Origin: Cyanobium sp. ATX 6F1
GTDB taxonomy: Bacteria > Cyanobacteriota > Cyanobacteriia > PCC-6307 > Cyanobiaceae
Direction of reading: 5' to 3'
DNA length: 64,000 bases
Assembly (NCBI RefSeq): GCF_024346315.1
Contig: NZ_JAGQCS010000003.1
Span: 62,001 to 126,000, forward strand
Below, piece after piece: positions 3,275 through 62,559 of this stretch (positions within the stretch are counted from its first letter, which is position 1; each line of letters begins with the position of its first letter). A program made the translations under genes and the position numbers. The notes beneath the pieces are model-generated. The model did no database searches, was not told the DNA's origin, and saw nothing but the letters and a program-made list of their open reading frames with translations.

Positions 3275-4288
3275 GAGGGGCGGAGCGCTTCCGGGTGACT
3301 GCTTGAGATAGGACTGAACGGGCAGGCGCTGGCGCTGCACGTAGCCCACCGGCAGCCAGAGGTCGCCGGCGTTGGAGATGATGTGGATCTCCCAGTTGTA
3401 GAGGCCGTTGAAGGCGGCTGGATCTTGCTTGAGCAGGGCGGCGTAGGCGAGCACGCCGCGCACGTAGTGGTCGCTGTTGTTGTAACCCCACAGCCCCTTG
3501 CGGATGTCCTTGAGGCCGCCGCGGCGCACCAGATAACGGGCGGCGGCCTGGATGGCGTCGTGGGGGTCGCGGATGTCGCCGCGTCCGATGCCGCGCTCCG
3601 CCCAGGTGGTGGGCAGGAACTGCATCGGGCCATGGGCATCGGCCACCGACACCCCATCGATGCGGCCCATGCCGGTTTCCACCAGGTTGATCGCCGCCAG
3701 CACCTCCCAGGGGATGCCCGTGGCCGCCTGGGCCTTGCGGTAGTACCCCAGCAGGGACCTAGCGGGCTCGGGCGGGATGATTCGCCAGGCCGGCACGGTG
3801 GCCGAACCGGGCCGGCCCCGCTGCATCGCCAGGAATTCCCGCCGGGCCGCCAGATGCAGGTCGAGCACGGTCCACCAGCGCTGGGGCAGTTCCCGTCGCA
3901 CGGCTTCCGCCAGCTCCGGCCTGCGGGCCAGTAGCCGGATGATCACCTGTTCCTGGTGGCCCAGGGCCGGCAGCTCGGCCGGGGGGGTGTCGGGGGAGCG
4001 CAGCCCCTCCTCCACCTGGCTGAACAGGGCAGCCAGGGCGACGGGCTCGGCGGGAAGCTGGGGGTAGGCGCGGCTGACGAGGTTGGTGCTCGCCGCGGGG
4101 GCCGCTGCCTGGACTGGCTCGGCCTGGGCCGGCTCAGCCTGGGCCTTAGCGGTTGGGCCGGCGGCTTGTTCTGCCGCCACGGCCCGGTCGCTGGCACTCT
4201 GCGGGCTGCGCGGCAGGAGCGCCAGGGCCATCAGGAGGGCCCCGCCGCCGACGGTGAGCAGCCAGGGGAAGGGGGAAGAGCGACGCAC
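3257..4288 (-). CDS. Lytic murein transglycosylase (SLT domain), exported
   Basis: 343 residues. A signal or anchor segment occupies residues 6-27, followed by an Ala/Pro/Glu-rich linker (residues 30-70), a helical region and then an SLT fold. The catalytic glutamate is in INLVETGMGRI near residue 200, followed by GPMQFLPTTW and a GLWGYNNS Tyr/Asn motif, as in SltB-like enzymes. These cleave the MurNAc-GlcNAc bond of peptidoglycan with 1,6-anhydro formation in the periplasm. The C terminus is Pro/Ser-rich. It stands alone, convergent with the 2932 gene. Confidence 0.9.
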   Translation of the reverse strand: MRRSSPFPWLLTVGGGALLMALALLPRSPQSASDRAVAAEQAAGPTAKAQAEPAQAEPVQAAAPAASTNLVSRAYPQLPAEPVALAALFSQVEEGLRSPDTPPAELPALGHQEQVIIRLLARRPELAEAVRRELPQRWWTVLDLHLAARREFLAMQRGRPGSATVPAWRIIPPEPARSLLGYYRKAQAATGIPWEVLAAINLVETGMGRIDGVSVADAHGPMQFLPTTWAERGIGRGDIRDPHDAIQAAARYLVRRGGLKDIRKGLWGYNNSDHYVRGVLAYAALLKQDPAAFNGLYNWEIHIISNAGDLWLPVGYVQRQRLPVQSYLKQSPGSAPPLAQPPS

Positions 4289-13148: not shown

Positions 13149-13352
13149 CAGCAGCAGCGCCCCGAGGAACAGGGGCACGTTGATCACGGCGGCGATCAGC
13201 AGCACCGCGCTGCCCCAGCTGGGCTGACCGATGCGCTCGGCAGCCCAGAGAAAGGTGCCATCCACCACCACCAGAGCCAGCAGCCAGGCCACCGGGAAGC
13301 GGATCGAGGCCCGCGGCGGCGGTGATGAGGGATCAGGGGCGGGCTCAGCCAT
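13131..13352 (-). CDS. Small two-TM membrane protein coupled to arsJ
   Basis: 73 residues. The ATG at 13352 lies inside the last codons of arsJ, overlapping it by 8 bases, which suggests translational coupling. A Pro/Ser-rich N terminus precedes two hydrophobic segments (VAWLLALVVVDGTFLWAA and AVLLIAAVINVPLFLGALLLL) and ends in LRAKF. No family is recognised. Its place as last gene of the GAPDH-arsJ operon suggests a helper for arsenical export, an inference from position only. Confidence 0.65.
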   Translation of the reverse strand: MAEPAPDPSSPPPRASIRFPVAWLLALVVVDGTFLWAAERIGQPSWGSAVLLIAAVINVPLFLGALLLLRAKF

Positions 13353-14616
13353 GGGCGGCGGCGACCATTGAACGGGTTGGGGACAGTCTGAGGCTGGTGA
13401 GCCACGACAGCCCCACCAGCAGCGCCGAGCACCACAGGCAGGCCTGCAGGCCGCCCACCAGGAACAGGGCACCGGAGAGCAGGGTGCCCAGCAAACGGCC
13501 CGCGGCATTGGCCATGTAATAGAAGCCCACGTTGAGGCTCACCGATTCGGCGTCGGTGTAGGCCAGCACCATGTAGCTGTGGATCGAGGAATTCATCGCG
13601 AACACCGCCCCAAAGGCCACGAGCCCCACCACAATCGCCAACCCCGGCTGGGCCACCTCGCGCCAGAGCGCCACGGCGATCAGGGCCGGTATTGCCGTGA
13701 GCACCGCACTCCAGAACTGCACCGCTGAAGGCCCCGGCGGGCCGCCGCTGCCCCAGGCCCGGCGCAGGGCGGGCGTGGAACCCTGGATGATCCCGTAGCC
13801 GATCACCCACAGGCCCATAAAACCGCCCACCTCCCAGAATCTCCAGCCCAGGGCGGCCTCGAGGAACACCGGCAGGGCCACCACGAACCACACGTCGCGG
13901 GCGCCGAACAGGAAGAAGCGGGCCAGCGAGAGGATGTTGATGCCGGCGCTCTTGGCGAACAGGGCCGAGAAGGCCGGCTTATGCTTCATTCTGCCGATTT
14001 CATCCGGCAGCACCAGGGTGCCGAGCAGGGCCAGGAACAATCCGCCGGCCATGCCCGCCACCGAAGTGGCGAATCCGAAGCTGGTGAGCAGCACGCCGCC
14101 CAGGAAGAAGCCCACCCCCTTGAGGGCGTTCTTGGAGCCGGTGAGCAGGGCCACCCAGCGGAACAGTCGCTGCTCCACTTGGCTTGGTTCGCCTGGGGTT
14201 TCCGGCACCACCTCCCCTGCGACCACGGTCTTGATGGCGCTCTTGGCGCTCATCTTGTTGAGGTCCTTGGCGATGCCGCTGATCGCCTGGGCGCCCATCA
14301 CATAGAGCAGGGAGAACAGCTTCGGCCAGCTGGCTGAGACCGGCACCAGCATCAGCAGGGCGATGATCTGCAGCACCAGGCCGGCCCAGAGGGTGAGCCG
14401 CAGACCGAAACGGGCCCCCAGCCAGCCGCCGTAGAGGTTGGTGACGATGCCGAAGAACTCGTAGAACAGAAACAGGAAGGCGATCTCCAGGGTGGAGTAG
14501 CCGAGCTGGTGAAAGTGGAAGATCACCAGCATGCGCAGGGCGCCATCGGTGAGGGTGAAGGCCCAGTAGGAGGCGGTGACGACCGCGTACTGCTCCAGCG
14601 CCGTGAGCTGTTTCAT
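13345..14616 (-). CDS. arsJ: Organoarsenical efflux transporter ArsJ (MFS)
   Basis: 423 residues with about twelve hydrophobic segments. The N terminus ([21 protein letters not shown]) and the internal [16 protein letters not shown] loop are typical of ArsJ. With the partner GAPDH, this MFS protein exports 1-arseno-3-phosphoglycerate, which forms when GAPDH uses arsenate instead of phosphate; the ester then breaks down outside, giving net arsenate removal. Its ATG overlaps the stop of the GAPDH gene (ATGA). The neighbouring arsR and operator strengthen the assignment. Confidence 0.92.
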
Positions 14617-15653
14617 GACCCGGCAGCTTCAAGTGCTGCCACATGGCAGGCGAGATCGGCCAGGCGGCAGCTGTAACCCCACTCGTTGTCGTACCAGGTG
14701 TAGACCTTGAGCTGGGTGCCGCCCGTCACCAGCGTCGAGGGGGCATCGACGATCGCGCTGCGCGGGTCGTTGACGTAGTCGATCGACACCAGCGGCCGCT
14801 CCTCGCAGCCCAGGATTCCCTGCAGCGCTCCGGCGGCAGCGGCGGCAAAGGCGGCATTCACCTCCTCAACGCTCACCGCGCGCTCCAGCTCGAACACCGC
14901 ATCGGTGATCGAGGCATTGAGCATGGGCACCCGCACCGCATGGCCGTTGAGTTTGCCCTGGAGCTCCGGGAAGATCAGGCCGATCGCCTTGGCCGAACCG
15001 GTGGTGGTGGGGATCAATGAGCTGGTGGCGGAGCGAGCCCGGCGCAGGTCGGATTTGAAGCTGTCGATCACCACCTGGGTATTGGTGATGTTGTGCAGAG
15101 TGGTGATCGAGCCGTGGCGAATGCCGAAGCTCTCGTGCACCACCTTCACCACCGGTGCCAGGCAGTTGGTGGTGCAGGAGGCGGCGGTGAGCAGGCGGTG
15201 GAGGCTGGGGTTGTAGAGCGCGTGGTTGATGCCGAACACCACGTTCAGTGCCTCCTCGCCGGCGATCACCCCCTTCACCGGGCAGGCCACGATCACCCGC
15301 TTCAGGCCCGCCGCGCTGAAGTAGGGCTCGAGGGTTTCGGGCGTTTTGAACTTGCCGCTGCACTCGAGCACCAGGTCCACCCCGGCATCCAGCCAGGGCA
15401 CGGCGCTGGGGTCCTTGTGGCGGCTGTAGCTCACGGTGGTTCCGTCCACCTGAAAGCCCTGGGGCACGGTGGGATCAGCGGCCACTGCCCGATCCCAGCG
15501 GCCATGCACGGAGTCGAATTCGAGCAGATGGGCGGCGGTGGCGGCATCACCGGCCGGGTCGTTGACATGCACCAGCGCAATGCCGGGCCTGCCCCAGAGG
15601 GCACGGAACACGAGGCGGCCGATGCGGCCGAAACCGTTGATGCCGAGGCGCAT
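14613..15653 (-). CDS. gap: ArsJ-associated glyceraldehyde-3-phosphate dehydrogenase
   Basis: 346 residues from ATG 15653; an open frame continues upstream over the intergenic region but is not coding. NAD-binding [10 protein letters not shown] is at residue 4, the catalytic cysteine motif [10 protein letters not shown] near residue 157 and the C-terminal [11 protein letters not shown] near residue 322. In this context the enzyme is expected to arsenylate glyceraldehyde 3-phosphate to 1-arseno-3-phosphoglycerate for ArsJ. It is first in the minus-strand operon, overlaps arsJ by 4 bases, and diverges from arsR across an 84-base region holding an ArsR box. Confidence 0.93.
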
Positions 15654-15701: not shown

Positions 15702-15724
15702 ATCAAATCTGCTTGATTGATCAA
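15702..15724. promoter_or_regulatory. ArsR-type operator between GAPDH-arsJ and arsR
   Basis: ATCAA at 15702-15706 and TTGAT at 15713-15717 form the inverted repeat ATCAA-N6-TTGAT, followed at once by the palindrome TTGATCAA (15717-15724). This is the motif described for cyanobacterial ArsR operators. It lies 14 bases before the arsR start and 49 before the GAPDH start, so one site could repress both divergent units until arsenic or antimony releases ArsR. Confidence 0.8.
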
Positions 15725-15737
15725 GAGGAGTTGATGA

Positions 15738-16070
15738 ATGACGGTGTCCCTGCCCGCCGGGTCCCCTGCGCTCCAGTCCAACCAGGCTCGGTCCCTGCTC
15801 AAGGCTCTCTCTGACCCCCTGCGTTTGCGCGTGATCGAAGCCCTCGCCAATGGCGAGAAGTGCGTCTGCGACCTCACGGCTGAGCTCGATCTGGCCCAGT
15901 CCAAGCTCTCCTTTCACCTCAAGGTGCTCAAGGAGGCGGGGCTGTTGGCTGACCGCCAGGAGGGCCGCTGGATCTACTACCGCCTGGAGCCGGCCGCCAT
16001 CGAGGCCCTGCGCTCCTGGCTTGCGGATCTGGCCAGCCGTTGCGGCGCCAGCGCGCCCCCATGCGGCTGA
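15738..16070 (+). CDS. arsR: ArsR-family arsenic-responsive repressor
   Basis: 110 residues from ATG 15738, with AAGAGGAG as ribosome site eight bases upstream. The winged helix has [13 protein letters not shown], then the metalloid-binding CVCDL motif in the DNA-recognition region (residues 36-40) and [17 protein letters not shown]. Two further cysteines lie at the C terminus (RCG, PCG) and could complete a site for As(III). It is autoregulated if the upstream box is used. The same box recurs before sphX, widening its likely regulon. Confidence 0.93.
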
Positions 16071-16097
16071 ACCATCCCCCGGTGCTGGCCAAGTTGA

Positions 16098-16181
16098 GGC
16101 CCCTTGATCGAGGTGCCGGCCCTGGTGAGCCTGGTTTATCTCTCGCTGACGCTGCGGCGGCGCCTCCAGCGCTTGGCCTGA
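16098..16181 (+). pseudogene. C-terminal remnant of an ACR3-type arsenite efflux pump
   Basis: Just after arsR, 27 codons and a stop read [17 protein letters not shown] followed by [13 protein letters not shown]3 permeases typically end in a xGPLxEVPVxxxLVxxALxxRRR segment, which this matches in order and spacing. The codon before it is TGA and no start is available, so the rest of the pump has been lost. The position downstream of arsR is where ACR3 usually lies. A chance match is possible given the short length. Confidence 0.5.
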
Positions 16182-16187
16182 GGCAGG

Positions 16188-16217
16188 GTTCATCAAGGCT
16201 TAAACCGTCGTTAAACC
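16188..16217 (+). promoter_or_regulatory. Pho box upstream of sphX
   Basis: CTTAAACC (16199-16206) and GTTAAACC (16210-16217) are near-identical 8-mers with an 11-base period, and a weaker GTTCATCA occupies the preceding register (16188-16195). This is the tandem CTTAACCT-like arrangement bound by the PhoB/SphR response regulator in cyanobacteria. It predicts induction of sphX under phosphate shortage. Confidence 0.75.
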
Positions 16218-16236
16218 ATCAATCGCATTTGATCAA
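16218..16236 (+). promoter_or_regulatory. Second ArsR-type operator, upstream of sphX
   Basis: ATCAA (16218-16222), six bases, TTGAT (16229-16233): the same inverted repeat as at 15702, again running into TTGATCAA (16229-16236). It begins on the base after the last Pho-box unit, where the -10 region of a PhoB-activated promoter would lie. ArsR bound here should block activation, linking phosphate uptake to arsenic status. Confidence 0.7.
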
Positions 16237-16268
16237 TCAGGGTGATCGGGCTGGCGCCCTCCCGTCCC

Positions 16269-17357
16269 ATGCTTCGCTTCCGTCGCCCCTCCTCACCCGG
16301 CCGCCATTCAGCTCGTGTCGCTGCTGCCACGCGCCTGATCGCCGCCACGGTCTTGGCCCTGCTCGCACCGCTCGCGCAGACCCAACCCGCCCGGGGCCAA
16401 CAGGCCACGCCCCCCACGGTGCGCATCACCGGATCGAGCACGGTCTACCCGATCATCCAAGCCGCCATCGCTGCCTTCCAGCGCACGGAGGCCGGCAAGG
16501 GGTCCCGCTTTGATCTGGTGGAATCGGGTACCAGCGGCGGCCTGCGTGATCTCTGTGCCGGTCGGGTGCCGATGGCCAATGCCTCGCGGCCGATCAGCTC
16601 CACTGAACTCAAGGCCTGTGAGCGGAAAGGGGTGCGCTTCTTCGAGCTGCCCCTCGCCTTCGATGCCCTCACCGTGGTGGTGAACCCGCGCAACACCTGG
16701 GCCCAGGCGATCACCACCCAGGAACTCTCCCGGCTGTGGCAGCGACGCGCCCAGGGCCGCATCATGCGTTGGAATCAGGTCAACCCCCAGTGGCCCGCAC
16801 GGCCGATCCGGCTCTGCGGACCCGGTAGCGATTCAGGCACCTTCGACTACTTCAACAAGGCGATCAACGGCTCCGCCACTGATTCACGCCGCGACTACAC
16901 CGCCAGCGAAGACGACAACGTGGTGGTCAACTGTGTGGCCAACGACCCCCATGCCCTCGGTTATCTGGGCTATGGCTGGTACGTCGCCCATGCCCAGCGG
17001 TTAAGGGCTCTGAAGGTTCAGGCGGGTCAGGTGGCGGTGGCACCTTCGGCGGAGAGCGTGTTCGATGGCAGCTACGAACCGCTCTCCAGGCTCCTGTTCA
17101 TCTACGTCAACGAACGGGCGCTCAAGGAACAAGACCTGCTGCGGCGCTTCATCGGTTACCTGTTGGTGAACGACACCCAACTGGTCGAGAAGGCACGGTT
17201 CATTCCCCTGCCGGGCAGCACCAATCAGGTGGTGGAAGCCAAGCTCTACCGCCAGATCACCGGCACATCCTTCGGCGGTGAACTTCCGATCGGCCTGACG
17301 GTTGGCGAGGCCATACGGCGCAGTTTTGCTCAAACCAAGCGACCTGCTTACCGCTGA
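16269..17357 (+). CDS. sphX: SphX/PstS-type periplasmic phosphate-binding protein
   Basis: 362 residues from ATG 16269; a GTG at 16242 is an alternative. Residues ~22-50 form an export signal ending near PARGQQA. The mature part opens with VRITGSSTVYPIIQAAIAAF, the SphX form of the phosphate-binding loop, followed by ESGTSGGL and GPGSDSGTFDYFN ligand loops. The protein should bind phosphate in the periplasm, either for the Pst ABC importer or as a buffer. No pst permease or ATPase genes are next to it. Its promoter carries Pho and ArsR boxes. The 3' end overlaps the convergent gene by 10 bases. Confidence 0.9.
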   Translation: MLRFRRPSSPGRHSARVAAATRLIAATVLALLAPLAQTQPARGQQATPPTVRITGSSTVYPIIQAAIAAFQRTEAGKGSRFDLVESGTSGGLRDLCAGRVPMANASRPISSTELKACERKGVRFFELPLAFDALTVVVNPRNTWAQAITTQELSRLWQRRAQGRIMRWNQVNPQWPARPIRLCGPGSDSGTFDYFNKAINGSATDSRRDYTASEDDNVVVNCVANDPHALGYLGYGWYVAHAQRLRALKVQAGQVAVAPSAESVFDGSYEPLSRLLFIYVNERALKEQDLLRRFIGYLLVNDTQLVEKARFIPLPGSTNQVVEAKLYRQITGTSFGGELPIGLTVGEAIRRSFAQTKRPAYR

Positions 17358-18493
17358 GGCGAACCGGGGGGCTCCGGTCCAGCGCTCTCCACCGGATAGC
17401 CCTCCGCTTTCCAACGGCTCAGACCGCCGCGCAGGTTGGCTACTTGCCTCAGGCCGGCTTTGCTCAGTTGCTGGGTGGCCAGGGCCGAGCGGCTGCCGGA
17501 ATGGCAGAGCACCACCGTCGGGCGATCGGTGGGGATTTCTGGGCTGCGGGCCTCCAACTCCGGCAGGGGGATCAGCTGGCTGCCGGGAATGTGGCCATCG
17601 GGGCCGTCGTATTCCTGCCGCGAGCGCACGTCCACCAGGTTGAGGGCGCTGAGGTGGGCGGCCACCCATTCAGGGATCAGTTCCGGCAACCCGGCGTAGC
17701 TGCGCCGGATCGGCGCCCAGTCCTGGTCGTCCGCTCCGCTGGCGGGCTCTAGGGGCTCACCGCAGCGCAGATTCGCCGGCAGGGCCTGGGCGATGCGGTG
17801 GGGGTGGGGGAGACGCAGGTTCTCCATCGACCCGACGAAGTCGCGCTCATCGGCGCCGCCCCCCAGGCGGGCGTTGTAGGCCCGTTCCTCAGCCACGGAG
17901 CTGACGCAGCGGCCGGCGTAGTCGTGGCCCGGGTAGAGCAGGCAGGCCTCTGGCAGCGACAGGATCTGCTCGGTGATCGAGCGGTAGAGGTTGTGGGGGT
18001 TGCCCTGCTGGAAATCACAGCGACCGCAGCCGCGGATCAGCAGCGCATCACCGGTGAAGGCGAGGCTCTGGTTGTCGAGCACATAGGTGAGGCAGCCGTC
18101 GGTGTGGCCCGGGGTGGCGCGCACCTCCAGAAAGCGGCCGCCGAAGTTCACCCGATCGCCATCGCTCAGGGGCTTGGTCACGTTGCTGGCACGCACCTTG
18201 GCCGATAGTCCGATGGCGCAGCCCGTGGCCCGCCGCATCAGCCAGGCGCCGCTGATGTGGTCGGCGTGGGCGTGGGTGTCGAGGCAGGTGACCAGATCGA
18301 TCTCCAGCTCCTCGATCAGGGCCAGATCTCGGCTGTGCTGTTCGAACACCGGATCAATCAGCACCCCCTCGCGTGCCCCCACGTCTGCGAGTAGGTAGGT
18401 GTAGGTGCCGGTGTCGGCGTCGAAGAGTTGACGCAGCAGCAGCTCGCCGCCACCGGCGGCGGCCCGCAGCGAGAAAGGGGGGGCGACGGCCAT
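17348..18493 (-). CDS. Metallo-beta-lactamase persulfide dioxygenase fused to rhodanese
   Basis: 381 residues from ATG 18493; the 25 extra codons upstream lack coding character. The N-terminal 240 residues are an ETHE1-like fold with THAHADH near residue 70, TPGHTDGCLTY, and GRCDFQQG, ligands of the mononuclear iron. The last ~110 residues are a rhodanese domain with active-site loop CHSGSRSA and the entry VDVRSRQEYDGP. Such fusions oxidise glutathione persulfide to sulfite and exchange sulfane sulfur, a step in sulfide detoxification in the cytosol. It stands alone, convergent with sphX. Confidence 0.88.
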   Translation of the reverse strand: MAVAPPFSLRAAAGGGELLLRQLFDADTGTYTYLLADVGAREGVLIDPVFEQHSRDLALIEELEIDLVTCLDTHAHADHISGAWLMRRATGCAIGLSAKVRASNVTKPLSDGDRVNFGGRFLEVRATPGHTDGCLTYVLDNQSLAFTGDALLIRGCGRCDFQQGNPHNLYRSITEQILSLPEACLLYPGHDYAGRCVSSVAEERAYNARLGGGADERDFVGSMENLRLPHPHRIAQALPANLRCGEPLEPASGADDQDWAPIRRSYAGLPELIPEWVAAHLSALNLVDVRSRQEYDGPDGHIPGSQLIPLPELEARSPEIPTDRPTVVLCHSGSRSALATQQLSKAGLRQVANLRGGLSRWKAEGYPVESAGPEPPGSPQR

Positions 18494-18709
18494 GGTGGAT
18501 CTGACAGCCCGGGCCAGGGAGCTTAGGCCTGTGGCCCCAGCCAGGTGGGTCTTGAGCACGAACACCAAGAGGGAGCCGTCAACTGAAGGACGTTTTGGGG
18601 CAGGCTTTGATCGATCGACCTAAGGCGGCAGCGATGGTTGCCGATGGACGCCCCTCATTGCTGTGAAGAGCCACGTGCCTTGCCATGGCTCGTGCCAACC
18701 CAGATGGGT

Positions 18710-21568
18710 TCAGGGTTGGGCGATCTCGACCGTGAGTTGGATCGGTGCTCCGTTCCTGTTGGTGAGCTGCAGCTGCACGCGGTAGGGCAAAGCCCCCATC
18801 GGTGGATTCGTGGCTGTGAAGGTGCGACTGGTGGGTTGGTAGGTGAGCCAGCTGGGCAAGGCCCCGCCTCCGGGCTGAGTCGCTTCGGAGGGACCACCGA
18901 GGTCCACATCGGGGAAGCGCTCCAGCAGAAGTTGTCGCGGAACCTGATAGCTGAAGCCCAGGCCCTGCTGCCGCGTCGCCGCCAGGGCCATCGCCTCGCT
19001 GCGTGCTTGCTGCACCGTCCCAGCCCGTAAGCCCTCAGCCAAGTTGGAGGGTTTCGCCCCAGGCATGGGGCCCACTTCCCCACCGCCGCCACCCGGTGGG
19101 ACCACGGCCGGGCCGCCACCGGGCCTGGAAGGTCGGGTGGGCATGAGGCCGATTTCGCCACCGCCACCACCCGGTGGGATCACAGCCGGGCCACCACCGG
19201 GCTTGGAGGGCCTTGTGGGCATGAGCCCGATTTCGCCACCGCCGCCACCAGGGGGGATCACCGCCGGGCCGCCACCGGGCCTGGAGGGCCTTGTGGGCAT
19301 GAGGCCGATTTCTCCACCACCGCCACCTGGTGGGATCACCGCCGGGCCACCACCGGGCCTGGAGGGCCGTGTGGGCATGAGCCCGATTTCGCCACCGCCG
19401 CCACCAGGCGGGATCACGGCCGGGCCGCCACCGGGCCTTGAGGGCCGGGTGGGCATGAGTCCGACTTGTCCGCCACCGCCACCAGGGGGGATCACCGCCG
19501 GGCCGCCACCAGGTCTGGAGGGCCGCGTGGGCATGAGCCCGACTTCTCCACCGCCGCCACCCGGTGGGATCACAGCAGGGCCACCACCGGGCCTGGAGGG
19601 CCGTGTGGGCATGAGGCCGATTTCTCCACCGCCGCCACCGGGCGGTATCACGGCCGGACCGCCACCAGGTCTGGAAGGCCGAGTTGGCATGAGGCCGATT
19701 TCTCCGCCGCCGCCACCAGGTGGGATCACAGCCGGTCCGCCACCGGGTCTGGATGGAAGCCCGGGCATGAGGCCCACTTCTCCGCCGCCGCCGCCACCAG
19801 GTGGGATCACGGCCGGACCACCGCCGGGTCTGGATGGAAGGCCAGGCATGAGTCCGACTTCTCCGCCACCGCCACCCGGGGGGATCACAGCAGGACCACC
19901 ACCAGGTCTGGATGGAAGCCCAGGCATGAGGCCCACTTCTCCACCACCGCCACCAGGGGGGATCACGGCCGGGCCACCACCGGGCCTGGAGGGCCGCGTG
20001 GGCATGAGTCCCACTTCTCCGCCACCGCCACCAGGGGGGATCACAGCCGGGCCACCACCAGGCCTGGAGGGTCGGGTGGGCATGAGCCCGATTTCTCCAC
20101 CACCGCCACCTGGCGGGATCACGGCCGGGCCGCCACCGGGCCTGGAGGGCCGAGTGGGCATGAGCCCGATTTCGCCGCCACCGCCACCAGGCGGGATCAC
20201 AGCAGGGCCGCCACCGGGCCTGGAGGGCCGCGTGGGCATGAGGCCGATTTCGCCGCCACCACCACCAGGCGGGATCACAGCAGGACCGCCACCAGGCCTG
20301 GAAGGCCGTGTGGGCATGAGCCCGATTCCTCCACCCCCACTGCCGCCTCCGCCATTCCCGCCGCCACTGCCTCCACCGGCGTTGCCACCTCCATTTCCGC
20401 CACCGCCATTTCCTCCGCCACCGCCCGGTCGCCCTTGCCCGGCGCCATTGCCGGGGCCGCTGCCGTCCCCGGGACCACCCGCCCCGCCGCCTGTGCCAGG
20501 GATGAGGTTGGCTCCGCCGCCGAGGTTGGCTCCGCCACCACCGCCACCCTCTGGCTTGCCGCCTCCGTCAGGCTTGCCGCCACCATCGGGCTTCCCGCCA
20601 CCGCCCGGTCGCCCTTGCCCGGCGCCATTGCCGGGGCCGTTGCCGTCACCGGGACCACCTGCCCCACCGCCGGTGCCAGGGATGAGGTTGGCGCCGCCGC
20701 CGACGTTGGCGCCGCGACCGCCGCTATTTCCGCCTCCATTGCCATTGCCATTGCCATTGCCACCAGCACTCCTGTTGCTGAGGCCGTCACCGACCCTGGG
20801 ACGAACGCCAGGGGTGGCGCTGGAGAGGGCTTGCTTCCCGAGCGGAGCGGCGCCGCGGCTCTGGAGACGGCTGCCAACAGGTGTGCGGGCGCCGCCTGCG
20901 ATCAGGGCCGGTGGCTTGAGCCCGGTGGCGGGGAGCCGGGTGGCATTGATGGCCGCCAGCAGGGATTGACCGCTCTGGATCAGCGCAGCCCGGTTGCTGA
21001 CGTTGCCGGGCAGAAGGGTGAGGGACCCTTCGATCGGCCGTTGGGTGCCGAGGATCGTGCCGCGCAGGTTGATGGCCTGATCCCGGATGAAGCTGAGATT
21101 GCGGAAGCGAGTGGGCTGGATGGCATAGGCCTGGGAGAAGCGCCAGAGGGTGCTGGGATCGAGTCGCAAAGGCACCAGCCAGGAGGAAGGGGCCAGGATC
21201 CGCCCGCTTGCTTCCACCTGAATTCCACTCGGATTCACCAGCACGAAGCGGGGACCCGATTGCACCGTGCCGCCGATGAGGGAGGCCCCGCTGGTGCCAC
21301 GGACGAAGTTCAACAGCACCTGGTTGCTGCTGCCCTGGACCTGGAACAGTTCACCCGGGCTGACGTTGAAACTCTGCCAACGCACCAGGCCGCCTTTGCC
21401 GACCACCTGGATCTGACCGTTGGCGCCGGGGATGAGGCCCTGCACATTGGCGCTGCGGCCCCCACTGAACTCGGGCAGGGCCTGGCTGGGAAGGGGCAGC
21501 CAGGGCACCAGGCTCAGGCCCGCGAGCACACAGAGGGAGATTCGATGCGGCTGGTTTCGGTGTGTCAT
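18710..21568 (-). CDS. TpsA-like secreted protein with haemagglutinin N-domain and Gly/Pro repeats
   Basis: 952 residues. A signal peptide (1-31) precedes a TPS/filamentous-haemagglutinin secretion domain (~32-260: GLVRWQSFNVSPGE, NPSGIQVEASGRI). About 570 residues of Gly/Pro/Asn-rich sequence follow, containing a duplicated block (LIPGTGGGAGGPGDG) and sixteen copies of a 26-residue repeat. The C-terminal ~100 residues (LPSWLTYQPTSRTFTATNPP) look like a cadherin/He-PIG-type Ig-like domain. The gene lies 4 bases from the TpsB gene, so it should cross the outer membrane through that protein. The long repeat tract in place of a beta-helix is unusual. Surface adhesion is an inference. Confidence 0.85.
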   Translation of the reverse strand: MTHRNQPHRISLCVLAGLSLVPWLPLPSQALPEFSGGRSANVQGLIPGANGQIQVVGKGGLVRWQSFNVSPGELFQVQGSSNQVLLNFVRGTSGASLIGGTVQSGPRFVLVNPSGIQVEASGRILAPSSWLVPLRLDPSTLWRFSQAYAIQPTRFRNLSFIRDQAINLRGTILGTQRPIEGSLTLLPGNVSNRAALIQSGQSLLAAINATRLPATGLKPPALIAGGARTPVGSRLQSRGAAPLGKQALSSATPGVRPRVGDGLSNRSAGGNGNGNGNGGGNSGGRGANVGGGANLIPGTGGGAGGPGDGNGPGNGAGQGRPGGGGKPDGGGKPDGGGKPEGGGGGGANLGGGANLIPGTGGGAGGPGDGSGPGNGAGQGRPGGGGGNGGGGNGGGNAGGGSGGGNGGGGSGGGGIGLMPTRPSRPGGGPAVIPPGGGGGEIGLMPTRPSRPGGGPAVIPPGGGGGEIGLMPTRPSRPGGGPAVIPPGGGGGEIGLMPTRPSRPGGGPAVIPPGGGGGEVGLMPTRPSRPGGGPAVIPPGGGGGEVGLMPGLPSRPGGGPAVIPPGGGGGEVGLMPGLPSRPGGGPAVIPPGGGGGGEVGLMPGLPSRPGGGPAVIPPGGGGGEIGLMPTRPSRPGGGPAVIPPGGGGGEIGLMPTRPSRPGGGPAVIPPGGGGGEVGLMPTRPSRPGGGPAVIPPGGGGGQVGLMPTRPSRPGGGPAVIPPGGGGGEIGLMPTRPSRPGGGPAVIPPGGGGGEIGLMPTRPSRPGGGPAVIPPGGGGGEIGLMPTRPSKPGGGPAVIPPGGGGGEIGLMPTRPSRPGGGPAVVPPGGGGGEVGPMPGAKPSNLAEGLRAGTVQQARSEAMALAATRQQGLGFSYQVPRQLLLERFPDVDLGGPSEATQPGGGALPSWLTYQPTSRTFTATNPPMGALPYRVQLQLTNRNGAPIQLTVEIAQP
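19070..20325 (-). repeat. Sixteen tandem 78-bp units encoding 26-residue Gly/Pro repeats
   Basis: Each unit encodes GLMPTRPSRP, then GGG, then PAVIPPGGGGGE plus I or V. Three central copies have GLPSRP in place of TRPSRP, one has an extra Gly, one has Gln for Glu, one SKP, and the last PAVV. Synonymous changes differ between copies, so the array is not freshly amplified throughout. It is prone to slippage and assembly error, and copy number is likely to vary between strains. Confidence 0.95.
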
Positions 21569-21572
21569 GGGC

Positions 21573-23318
21573 TCAGAACCACTTCCTCAGAGACACCCAG
21601 ACCCGCACGCTGGCATTGAGTCCATCCACGTCGTTGCCGGTGGGGGAATAGAGGTTGTTGCCCAGCGGCCAGGCCACATCCAGCGAGGCGAGCAGATCGC
21701 CATGGGTGCCCCATTCCAACCCTAGGCCCGGTCCCCACAGGCCCAGCTGACCCGGCAGCTCCCCATCGGCAAACGAACTCGTCCAACGCCAGATGTAGCC
21801 CCCATCCACGAATCCCTTGGCGATCAGATTGCTGGCCAGTTGGTAGCGAAGGGTGAGTTGCCCCGACAGCCCCGAATCTCCGAGGGCCTCACCCGGTGGA
21901 TAGGCGCGCACACCATTGGGCCAACCAAGGGACATCTTCTCGACGGTGTCGAGGTTGTTGAACGCAACCTGGGCCTGGCTGAACAGTTCGACCGACCAGC
22001 GCGAATCGCGGAACATCTGATAACGCCGATAAAGGCCGAACAACTTCCCCCAGGCACCGGCCTTGGCGGCGCCTAATTCATCGAGTTCGGCCTCAAAGGG
22101 TCCGTCCAGGCCCAGATTTCCCACCGACAGCGTGAGCAGTCCGCTGTTGATGCCGAGCCCGAACAGGTTGTCCTGGTTGTCGCCCATCAACGTGAAGCGG
22201 CCGACCCAGTTGGTGCGGTTGGAGTATTGATAACCGAGGACTTCATCGGTGAAGTGATCGACTTCAGCGCTGACATTCCAGGAAAGGTTCTGTCTGGGGC
22301 GCCGCCACAGCACCTGAGACAACCCCACCGAACCGCTGGCGAAGGATCCCTTGTAGTCGAAAGGTGCCTGATCTTTAAGCAGGCGATAATCACTCCAGTT
22401 CACCGACCCTGTGGCATTCAGCCCGCCCGGTGTGAGGGGCAAAGTTACATTCGTGCCGGCATAGCGGCTGCCGTACCAGTTCACATTGCCGGAATAGGAT
22501 GTGAATAGGCTGAGCACCTCGCCGCGGCCCGCTAGGCCGTTGAGGTTCAGCGTGGCTTGCGCCTGATACGGCCCGGTGTCGATCGTGGATTGGTTGTTGA
22601 GGTTCAGCTCCCCCTGGACCTGCCGCGTGGCCCGCAGGTTGAGCAACACATCGGTGCTCCCGGCTATGTCCCCTGGCTGGAGCTCGGCCCTGGCCTGGAC
22701 ACCACCGAGGTCGCCCAGCTTGAGCAAAGCACTCTCCAGCTTGTCGAGCCGCAGCGGCTGGCCCTTGCCCACCGCATCGAGCACTGTGGCGATCGCCCAG
22801 TTCGAGGAGATCGGGGCCTGGTTGGAGGGGATGCGCACGGCCCCGAGCCGCGCTTCCACCACCGGAGCCACCACCACGCCATCGGCGCGCTGCAGCGGCT
22901 CGCCCACGCTGACCAGCAGCTGGGCCCGCTCGTAGGCCGCCTCCAGATCGGCCCGCAGCTTGGCGAGCACCTCCTGGGTGGCGCTCTGGCTGATGTAGCG
23001 CTCCTGCAGCGGCTTCAACCAGCCCGGGGTTGGGAGGCTCGAGCCTTCCAGTTCCACGCCCTTGATCGGCGGCGCTGCCGAGGGGACTGAGTCTTGGGGG
23101 AGGGCTGCAGGGGTGCCTGGCAGACCTTCGATCAGGGGCTGCTGGGGTTGGAGCTGTTGTTGATCAACCTGGCGCAGCTGGTCACGCCGCTGTTCGTCCT
23201 GGATTCGACGCTCCACCCGGCCCGAGGGTTGGGCCCAGCCGGGCGCCACGAGCAGCGCCGAGGAGAGCACGGCGATGGGGCCCACCACATGGGTGATCGG
23301 TTTTGAAAAGAGCGTCAA
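21573..23318 (-). CDS. TpsB outer-membrane transporter (ShlB/FhaC family)
   Basis: 581 residues: signal peptide (about 1-29), a Gln-rich periplasmic linker, POTRA-like segments (LEAAYERAQLLVSVGEPL, then LDKLESALLKLGDLGGVQARAEL), and a C-terminal 16-strand-type barrel from about residue 230 ending in LRKWF. This is the Omp85-related transporter of two-partner secretion, which exports its TpsA partner across the outer membrane. The TpsA gene follows after 4 bases. The POTRA part seems complete. Confidence 0.9.
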   Translation of the reverse strand: MTLFSKPITHVVGPIAVLSSALLVAPGWAQPSGRVERRIQDEQRRDQLRQVDQQQLQPQQPLIEGLPGTPAALPQDSVPSAAPPIKGVELEGSSLPTPGWLKPLQERYISQSATQEVLAKLRADLEAAYERAQLLVSVGEPLQRADGVVVAPVVEARLGAVRIPSNQAPISSNWAIATVLDAVGKGQPLRLDKLESALLKLGDLGGVQARAELQPGDIAGSTDVLLNLRATRQVQGELNLNNQSTIDTGPYQAQATLNLNGLAGRGEVLSLFTSYSGNVNWYGSRYAGTNVTLPLTPGGLNATGSVNWSDYRLLKDQAPFDYKGSFASGSVGLSQVLWRRPRQNLSWNVSAEVDHFTDEVLGYQYSNRTNWVGRFTLMGDNQDNLFGLGINSGLLTLSVGNLGLDGPFEAELDELGAAKAGAWGKLFGLYRRYQMFRDSRWSVELFSQAQVAFNNLDTVEKMSLGWPNGVRAYPPGEALGDSGLSGQLTLRYQLASNLIAKGFVDGGYIWRWTSSFADGELPGQLGLWGPGLGLEWGTHGDLLASLDVAWPLGNNLYSPTGNDVDGLNASVRVWVSLRKWF

Positions 23319-61056: not shown

Positions 61057-62559
61057 TCACTGGGGCGGCGGCAGCTGCACCGGCGGCGGTGCCTGGGGCG
61101 CCGTTGTAGCGCTCTGGCTTGCGGGGGGCTGGGCCTGCGGCGCCGGCGTGGTGGGTTCGGACCCAGGGGAGTTCGTCCCAGTGGGGGATTCCTGGCGAGG
61201 CTCCTCCGGCATGGTTGGCTCGCTGGTTTCCGGGCGCACCGCCTCCGGGTCGCTGGGCAGCTGCTGGCCCTCCTGCAGCACCAACGGTGGGGGCAGATCG
61301 GGGGGCAGCGGCAACTCCGTCGCCGCCGGTTGACCGAGGCTGGGGCTGTCCTGCTGCTGCCGTTCCCGGAGGGCCGTCGGGTCGGCGGTGATCGGCGGCT
61401 CCCGCAGGGGAGCCCCCTGGCTGGGGGCCTTGCCACCTTTGGGCACCCGCGGCGCCCAGATCAGCCGCGCCAGGGGTTCGATTCCCTGCTCCACCAGCCG
61501 GTTGAAGCCCGCCAGGGCGCGATCCAGCAGCTGGCCGCCGAGGGTCTTGCCGCAGTCCAGTGGATTGCCGCAGTCCTGGGATCCCGGGTGGGGGGTGAGG
61601 CTGGCGAGCAGGTTGCCCTGCAGCGGCTGCCCGCGCTCGCTCAGACGCAGCATGAAGGGCACGTGAACGAAGCTGGTGGCACCGCCGCTGATCCAGTTGG
61701 CGTCCTGCTCGGAGAAGCCCTTCACGCCCGGAATGATGAAGCGGCTCTTGGAGGCGTGATCGGGCAAGTAGGCCGCCACCAGCCCCCGATCCCTGGCCAC
61801 GGCGCGGGTCTGCTCCAGGGTGAGCCCGTCGCGGCTCATCAGCACCTCCAGCCGACCGTCCCTGCGCAGGCCGATCACCATGCGGATGCGCGGCAGGTAG
61901 TAGCGGATCTGCTGACCCATGCTGATGCTGTAGGCGCCCTTGTAGGCCTCTGGCGGCGACTCCAGGTCGTTGTAGAGGCTGTGCAATCCGCCGATGAAGG
62001 TGTCGTAGCGGTTGGCCCGCTCCGGGGTCAGCTCGCCGTAGCCGAAATCCACGTGGCCGTCGTGGCCGATGCCGATGAAGGCCCGCTGGCGGGAGGCGGT
62101 GCGGTTGCGGCCGCGCCAGACCCGCTCCCCCAGCTTGAGATCGCCCAGGGGCACGGTGATCTCCCGGCCGCTCTCGTTCACGTGCCGCTCGTACATCGGC
62201 CCGGAGATGTAGGCCAGGGCCGAGCTGTCGGCGAAGGCCTCCTGTTCGCGGTCCCAGCCCTCGAGCACGTCGATGCGCACCCGGCGTGGGTCGAAATCGA
62301 GGGCGAAGGCCTCCTTGTCAGGCTTGTAGCGGAAGGCCCCACCGCCCCCGACGGGGTTCCGTTGGCTGCTCGCGGCGGGCTTGTCCGTCGGCAGTGGCGG
62401 GGCGATCGCGATCAATCCCAGCAGGGCGGCCAGGGGCAGGCCGATCACCAGCCAACGCTTGCGGACCCGTGCGCGGCGCCGTGCCGCGCCCGCCGTTTGC
62501 CGACTCTGATCCGAAGCGTGGGCCGAGGCGTGTTCCGGTGAGCGGAGCTGCCGCGTCAA
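61057..62559 (-). CDS. Membrane-anchored conserved hypothetical protein with Pro-rich tail
   Basis: 500 residues. A basic start and one membrane segment (WLVIGLPLAALLGLIAIAP) precede a ~300-residue extracytoplasmic domain: FALDFDPRRVRIDVLEGWDR, FIGIGHDGHVDFGYGEL, MVIGLRRDGRLEVLM. Two Cys pairs lie close (QDCGNPLDCGKT). The last ~110 residues are Pro/Gln/Thr-rich. The domain has some resemblance to phosphodiester glycosidase-like families but lacks features I could confirm. Its ATG overlaps the GST stop (ATGA). Confidence 0.6.
   Translation of the reverse strand: MTRQLRSPEHASAHASDQSRQTAGAARRRARVRKRWLVIGLPLAALLGLIAIAPPLPTDKPAASSQRNPVGGGGAFRYKPDKEAFALDFDPRRVRIDVLEGWDREQEAFADSSALAYISGPMYERHVNESGREITVPLGDLKLGERVWRGRNRTASRQRAFIGIGHDGHVDFGYGELTPERANRYDTFIGGLHSLYNDLESPPEAYKGAYSISMGQQIRYYLPRIRMVIGLRRDGRLEVLMSRDGLTLEQTRAVARDRGLVAAYLPDHASKSRFIIPGVKGFSEQDANWISGGATSFVHVPFMLRLSERGQPLQGNLLASLTPHPGSQDCGNPLDCGKTLGGQLLDRALAGFNRLVEQGIEPLARLIWAPRVPKGGKAPSQGAPLREPPITADPTALRERQQQDSPSLGQPAATELPLPPDLPPPLVLQEGQQLPSDPEAVRPETSEPTMPEEPRQESPTGTNSPGSEPTTPAPQAQPPASQSATTAPQAPPPVQLPPPQ

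Follow-up and report, generated by a model that had tools for sequence, protein, structure and literature searches.

The promoter of sphX, a phosphate-binding protein gene of Cyanobium sp. ATX 6F1, carries an exact match to the cyanobacterial ArsR operator, set without a gap against a Pho box and upstream of a predicted -10 hexamer. We consider it likely that this composite promoter acts as an AND gate, in which SphR would activate, ArsR would block and arsenite would release the block. The parts of the promoter, their spacing and conservation, the linkage to ars genes and the repeated origin of the arrangement are established by sequence, and dual phosphate/arsenic control of sphX is a reading well supported by comparative evidence. 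The locus lies in a 64,000-nt window, the whole stretch of DNA analysed here, which covers positions 62,001–126,000 of contig NZ_JAGQCS010000003.1 (assembly GCF_024346315.1); feature coordinates within it are collected in Table 1.

Table 1. Genes and promoter elements of the arsR–sphX locus, in window coordinates
Feature	Position	Strand	Description and basis
arsJ	13345..14616	-	Organoarsenical efflux MFS transporter; NF033734, 573.8 bits (cutoff 400)
gap	14613..15653	-	ArsJ-associated glyceraldehyde-3-phosphate dehydrogenase; NF033735, 535.9 bits (cutoff 450)
ArsR operator 2, arsR/gap intergenic region	15702..15717	.	Exact ATCAA-N6-TTGAT
ArsR operator 1, arsR/gap intergenic region	15720..15735	.	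Exact ATCAA-N6-TTGAT
arsR	15738..16070	+	ArsR/SmtB repressor; CVC motif in EKCVCDL
acr3 3'-end remnant (arsenite efflux)	16098..16181	+	Comparison with nearest relative (acr3 position in L089)
Pho-box pair (SphR/PhoB-type)	16199..16217	+	CTTAAACC (16199–16206), GTC, GTTAAACC (16210–16217); 11-base period
Predicted ArsR operator of sphX	16218..16233	.	ATCAATCGCATTTGAT; exact ATCAA-N6-TTGAT between Pho box and -10
Degenerate second ArsR-like repeat	16232..16246	.	ATCAA-N5-GTGAT; overlaps -10; weak, inferred
Predicted -10 hexamer of sphX	16238..16243	+	CAGGGT; positional enrichment of [CT]ANNNT
sphX	16269..17357	+	PstS-family phosphate ABC transporter substrate-binding protein; TIGR02136

ArsR has a winged-helix DNA-binding domain (PF01022, 1.1e-17; NF033788, 101 bits against a cutoff of 55), and its recognition region contains a cysteine pair, CVCDL, which we take to be the As(III) site. 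gap and arsJ diverge from arsR, and the MFS transporter ArsJ with its dedicated GAPDH forms an ArsJ-type arsenate efflux system. SphX scores 248 bits against TIGR02136 (cutoff 206.6); the ATG at 16269 is its likely start, and the alternative GTG at 16242 falls within the predicted -10. With gap and arsJ over their curated cutoffs, and with arsR and a PstS-family sphX beside them, the locus amounts to an arsenate-efflux cluster to which a phosphate-binding protein is joined. Compared with the nearest relative, the arsR–sphX interval (16080–16181) has lost about 1 kb, acr3 with it, and retains the acr3 tail. A second sphX in the genome, 60% identical to the first, lies downstream of acr3 in a second ars locus and has the same kind of promoter. 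An adjacent PhoB/PhoR-like pair (G000:C3:34713-36477) is the candidate SphR/SphS, an assignment made from best hits with scores below the curated cutoffs. On the minus strand downstream of the cluster, a gene convergent with sphX (17348–18568) encodes a single protein that fuses metallo-beta-lactamase and rhodanese domains. It is followed by a secreted protein that resembles haemagglutinins and repeats GEIGLMPTRPSRPGGGPAVIPPGGGG many times in tandem (18710–21568, minus strand) and, adjoining this, a probable two-partner-secretion translocator (21573–23318, minus strand), both recognized by eye in their translations.

The preliminary description of this DNA had reported two 8-mers with an 11-base period, followed directly by ATCAA-N6-TTGAT, before sphX, and the same inverted repeat before arsR; the sequence is exactly as claimed on both counts. 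That description names neither the ArsJ-type efflux pair nor the second sphX with its similar promoter. Two exact operators 18 bases apart occupy the arsR/gap region, and the sphX promoter has one exact and one degenerate repeat, the latter being exact at the corresponding place in two relatives (G167 and G191). SphR binds CTTAACCT-type (CTTAACC) repeats (PMC1906773), and the two Pho 8-mers fit this type with a 3-base linker, as in sphX promoters of the cyanobacterial Pho regulon. They differ from the latter in that known sites have at least three repeats, compared to two clear ones here, and in that no ArsR site is reported for them (PMC1906773). No convincing third Pho repeat was found at the sphX promoter, and two repeats are also the rule in most sphX promoters of the family. 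A search of the promoter for a sigma-70 match with a -35 element found none, as expected if the promoter is activator-dependent.

The CTTAACC box is conserved across sphX promoters. When promoters were aligned on it, [CT]ANNNT occurred 26–27 nt from TTAA in 18 of 21 composite promoters (mean 0.7 per offset) and in 50 of 69 plain ones (mean 2.4 per offset), and we read this shared hexamer as the predicted -10. A plain sphX promoter consists of a Pho box, a spacer of ~20 nt and a -10, and a composite promoter differs only in the ArsR operator that fills the spacer; because the -10 position is common to both classes, the ArsR box appears to have been added to an existing promoter plan. Spacing on the other side of the operator is also regular, with the TTAA of the CTTAACC-type box 6–7 nt before it in 23 of the 27 site-bearing promoters.

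The inverted repeat matches a known binding site. A DNase I footprint of Synechocystis ArsR defined ATCAA(N)6TTGAT (Lopez-Maury 2003, cited in PMC4585019), and in the ArsR regulon of Synechocystis PCC 6803 (arsBHC) the same operator stands as tandem repeats before the ars genes. Across the 2.96 Mb of the genome there are six exact copies of the motif and none of its reversed control. Five of the six sites are at arsR/gap or sphX promoters (two at arsR/gap in the window, one at arsR/gap of the second locus and one before each sphX paralog), and one is unexplained. The latter (L206 3826–3841; G000:C3:175825-175840) is flanked by the 3' end of pstB and a tRNA-Ser gene, has no exact counterpart in the nearest relative, and may be either a chance match or a lone pst-linked operator. 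When up to two mismatches are allowed, the window has 12 matches compared to 6.25 expected, which is only a mild enrichment. The genome has a single perfect TTAAMC-N5-TTAAMC, that of the sphX promoter in the window, and the chance expectation for a doubled Pho 8-mer is 0.03 per window. In Cyanobium sp. Morenito 9A2 (G051), the nearest relative, 3.1 Mb contain three exact sites, namely one at sphX and the arsR/gap pair, and the operator before sphX is 100% conserved between the two genomes despite the loss of acr3 in the window. The arrangement of Pho box and ArsR box is not due to chance.

Comparison across the family ties the operator to arsenic genes. sphX genes were gathered from 400 genomes and promoters were read for 124 copies, with the site defined as A-N-CAA-N6-TTGAT and ars linkage as the presence of arsR, gap or arsJ within 1.5 kb of sphX. 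A motif scan of relatives had been named in the preliminary description as a check, and in it the operator tracks ars linkage: the site is present in 18/18 ars-linked promoters and 9/106 others (Fisher 2e-15), and the exact ATCAA form in 11/18 and 6/106 (1.6e-7), values that overstate independence because the 1.5-kb limit was fixed once the table had been seen and each related genome was counted on its own. With a 5-kb limit, p is 1.5e-7 for the A-N-CAA form and 2e-4 for the exact form. Better control is offered by two genomes, G101 and G180, in both of which the ars-linked sphX bears the site and an unlinked paralog lacks it, and by the sphX protein tree, on which nine changes of the site are required, eight of them forced by well-supported branches. 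A tree-corrected pair test yielded seven pairs, too few for significance (median p of 0.125), and 0 pairs in the opposite direction. The motif was also checked independently on gap promoters: in the ars loci sampled from the family, 26/26 have the exact site. The left arm reads A(A/G)CAA in genus g31 and a few others, which departs from the footprint motif at one base. The mere presence of arsR was rejected as an explanation of the site, with arsR found in 80/80 tested genomes. A loose scan of the 400 genomes for TTAA-N2,3-ANCAA-N6-TTGAT returned mostly chance matches in AT-rich genomes, which were left uncounted because, for example, the L071 site falls in a glycosyltransferase reading frame. 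Three loci of genus g5 (L076–L078, about 3971–4040) have an exact ArsR site at the start of acr3, which supports the operator only; TTAA plus this site was rejected as a composite there, the TTAA lying beside the acr3 start codon.

Beyond the family, 40 loci were sampled, in which most sphX copies have neither ars neighbours nor the site. One clear composite was found, before an ars-linked sphX (G544, TTAACTCATCAAAATAAATTGAT). No clear Pho box accompanies the site in four genomes (G571, G447, G500 and G509), and in three (G522, G570 and G622) an ars-cluster sphX has no site of its own. Exact-site sphX promoters without a clear Pho box were observed in other families at L304, L308 and L319, with an AT-rich -10-like stretch following at L319. 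The survey thus indicates that the composite is mainly a feature of the Cyanobium family and was gained more than once. Perhaps it also moved between genera at times; the G180b and G076 copies group with other genera on the tree.

Simpler control by arsenic deserves the most attention among the alternatives. sphX could be an arsenic-responsive gene of the ars cluster, dominated by ArsR, also via read-through from arsR, with the Pho box a weak or vestigial ancestral remnant. No terminator-like site was found between arsR and sphX, the Pho box is eroded in some site-bearing promoters (G366, G369 and G267), and a study of Nodularia describes arsR and SphX in a shared transcription unit, with SphX up only 0.75–1.21 log2 under phosphate limitation (PMC9846622). 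We nevertheless judge this explanation unlikely: the Pho box is intact at its fixed spacing in 23/27 site-bearing promoters, that of the window is the most perfect in its genome, and ars genes were not found close to nine of the site-bearing sphX genes, so that read-through is not general. Less probable still is a passive relic, in which an ars operator was copied in when the genes became neighbours and has no present role; the site does follow physical linkage to ars genes, but the operator is identical although the adjacent acr3 was deleted, sites at the same spacing occur in five genomes with no ars genes found within several kb (G023, G069, G076, G213 and G253), and the arrangement originated repeatedly with the same placement. 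An equally slight chance attaches to binding by another regulator or to the palindrome being part of the SphR site, as its varying left arm (ATCAA, AACAA or AGCAA) at the junction with CTTAACC might suggest, given that the palindrome is absent from 97/124 sphX promoters, most of which retain the Pho box and -10, and that the motif occurs in every gap promoter sampled and equals the published ArsR footprint.

Under the AND-gate reading, phosphorylated SphR would bind the 11-base repeats and recruit RNA polymerase to the weak -10, and ArsR from the neighbouring gene would sit between the activator site and the -10, blocking the polymerase. ArsR leaves its operator on As(III) binding. Arsenite formed in the cell would release ArsR from the sphX promoter, as at the arsR/gap-arsJ operators, and strong sphX expression would follow only when phosphate limitation and arsenic act together. 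The cell would then have more periplasmic phosphate binding while arsenate competes for uptake and Gap-ArsJ efflux is induced. ArsR occupancy of this promoter, the AND logic and the benefit to the cell are what we infer from the comparisons above. The preliminary description had placed sphX under both SphR and ArsR, with increased phosphate capture as the outcome, an interpretation that is partly supported: its regulatory half passes every sequence test run (footprint motif, ars linkage, fixed spacing and several origins), and its physiological half may hold, but arsenic lowers phosphate-transport genes in Synechocystis (PMC4010505). GSSTV, SR and DSGT motifs are nearly invariant in plain and ars-linked SphX, and ars-linked SphX is therefore probably an ordinary phosphate binder; a search for residues that distinguish the two classes left one column (267) past a simple filter, which was set aside as confounded by clade structure. 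A broader proposal, that insertion of the ArsR operator is a recurrent, transferable AND gate by which several cyanobacterial lineages independently made a phosphate-starvation gene depend on arsenic as well, and that ars-linked SphX is the phosphate-selecting, uptake-side partner of Gap-ArsJ efflux, is tentative, and we would put its chances somewhat below even.

Several components of this scheme are already known, namely the operator motif, ArsR control of a pstS and arsR–pstS linkage in cyanobacteria. In Agrobacterium tumefaciens 5A, ArsR1 occupies the region between pstS1 and phoB1, and both genes are induced by As(III), pstS1 by 8.6–14-fold (PMC7965956). Its arsenic island pst1/pho1 resembles the present locus in that ArsR represses a phosphate-binding-protein gene and As(III) induces it, but there a whole pst-pho-phn operon is controlled and the response is insensitive to phosphate (PMC7965956, PMC3834237). 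The ArsR motifs in that organism are also different and mostly 100–150 nt upstream, with no operator reported in a Pho-box to -10 spacer. Huertas 2014 (PMC4284471) reports that ars clusters of cyanobacteria include PstS, Gap3 and MFS genes, with arsR upstream of PstS in some, and suggests co-regulation. Such clusters, like the Nodularia arsR-sphX-gap-arsJ cluster (PMC9846622), share the gene neighbourhood seen here and a proposed co-regulation by arsenic; the available parts of both reports differ from the present analysis in giving no operator, Pho-box overlap, family-wide test or within-genome control. Unlike the reading proposed here, ArsR of Synechocystis PCC 6803 controls only five genes, sphX not included, and arsenic represses phosphate-transport genes in Synechocystis, which runs against a general rule of induction (PMC4010505). 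In an incomplete literature search, no published case of an ArsR operator within a Pho promoter came up, and the composite promoter, with its embedded operator and recurrent evolution, appears to be new.

Clear spacing rules, repeated origin and paralog pairs that differ in the site make these promoters a clean natural system for understanding how two-input promoters are built, and the composite promoter could be used directly as an arsenic-sensing part that is active only at low phosphate. Phosphate transporters also let arsenate into cells, which creates a conflict for a cell that is starved of phosphate in arsenic-bearing water. For freshwater picocyanobacteria, which are widespread, a two-signal promoter would be a simple and testable way out of it.
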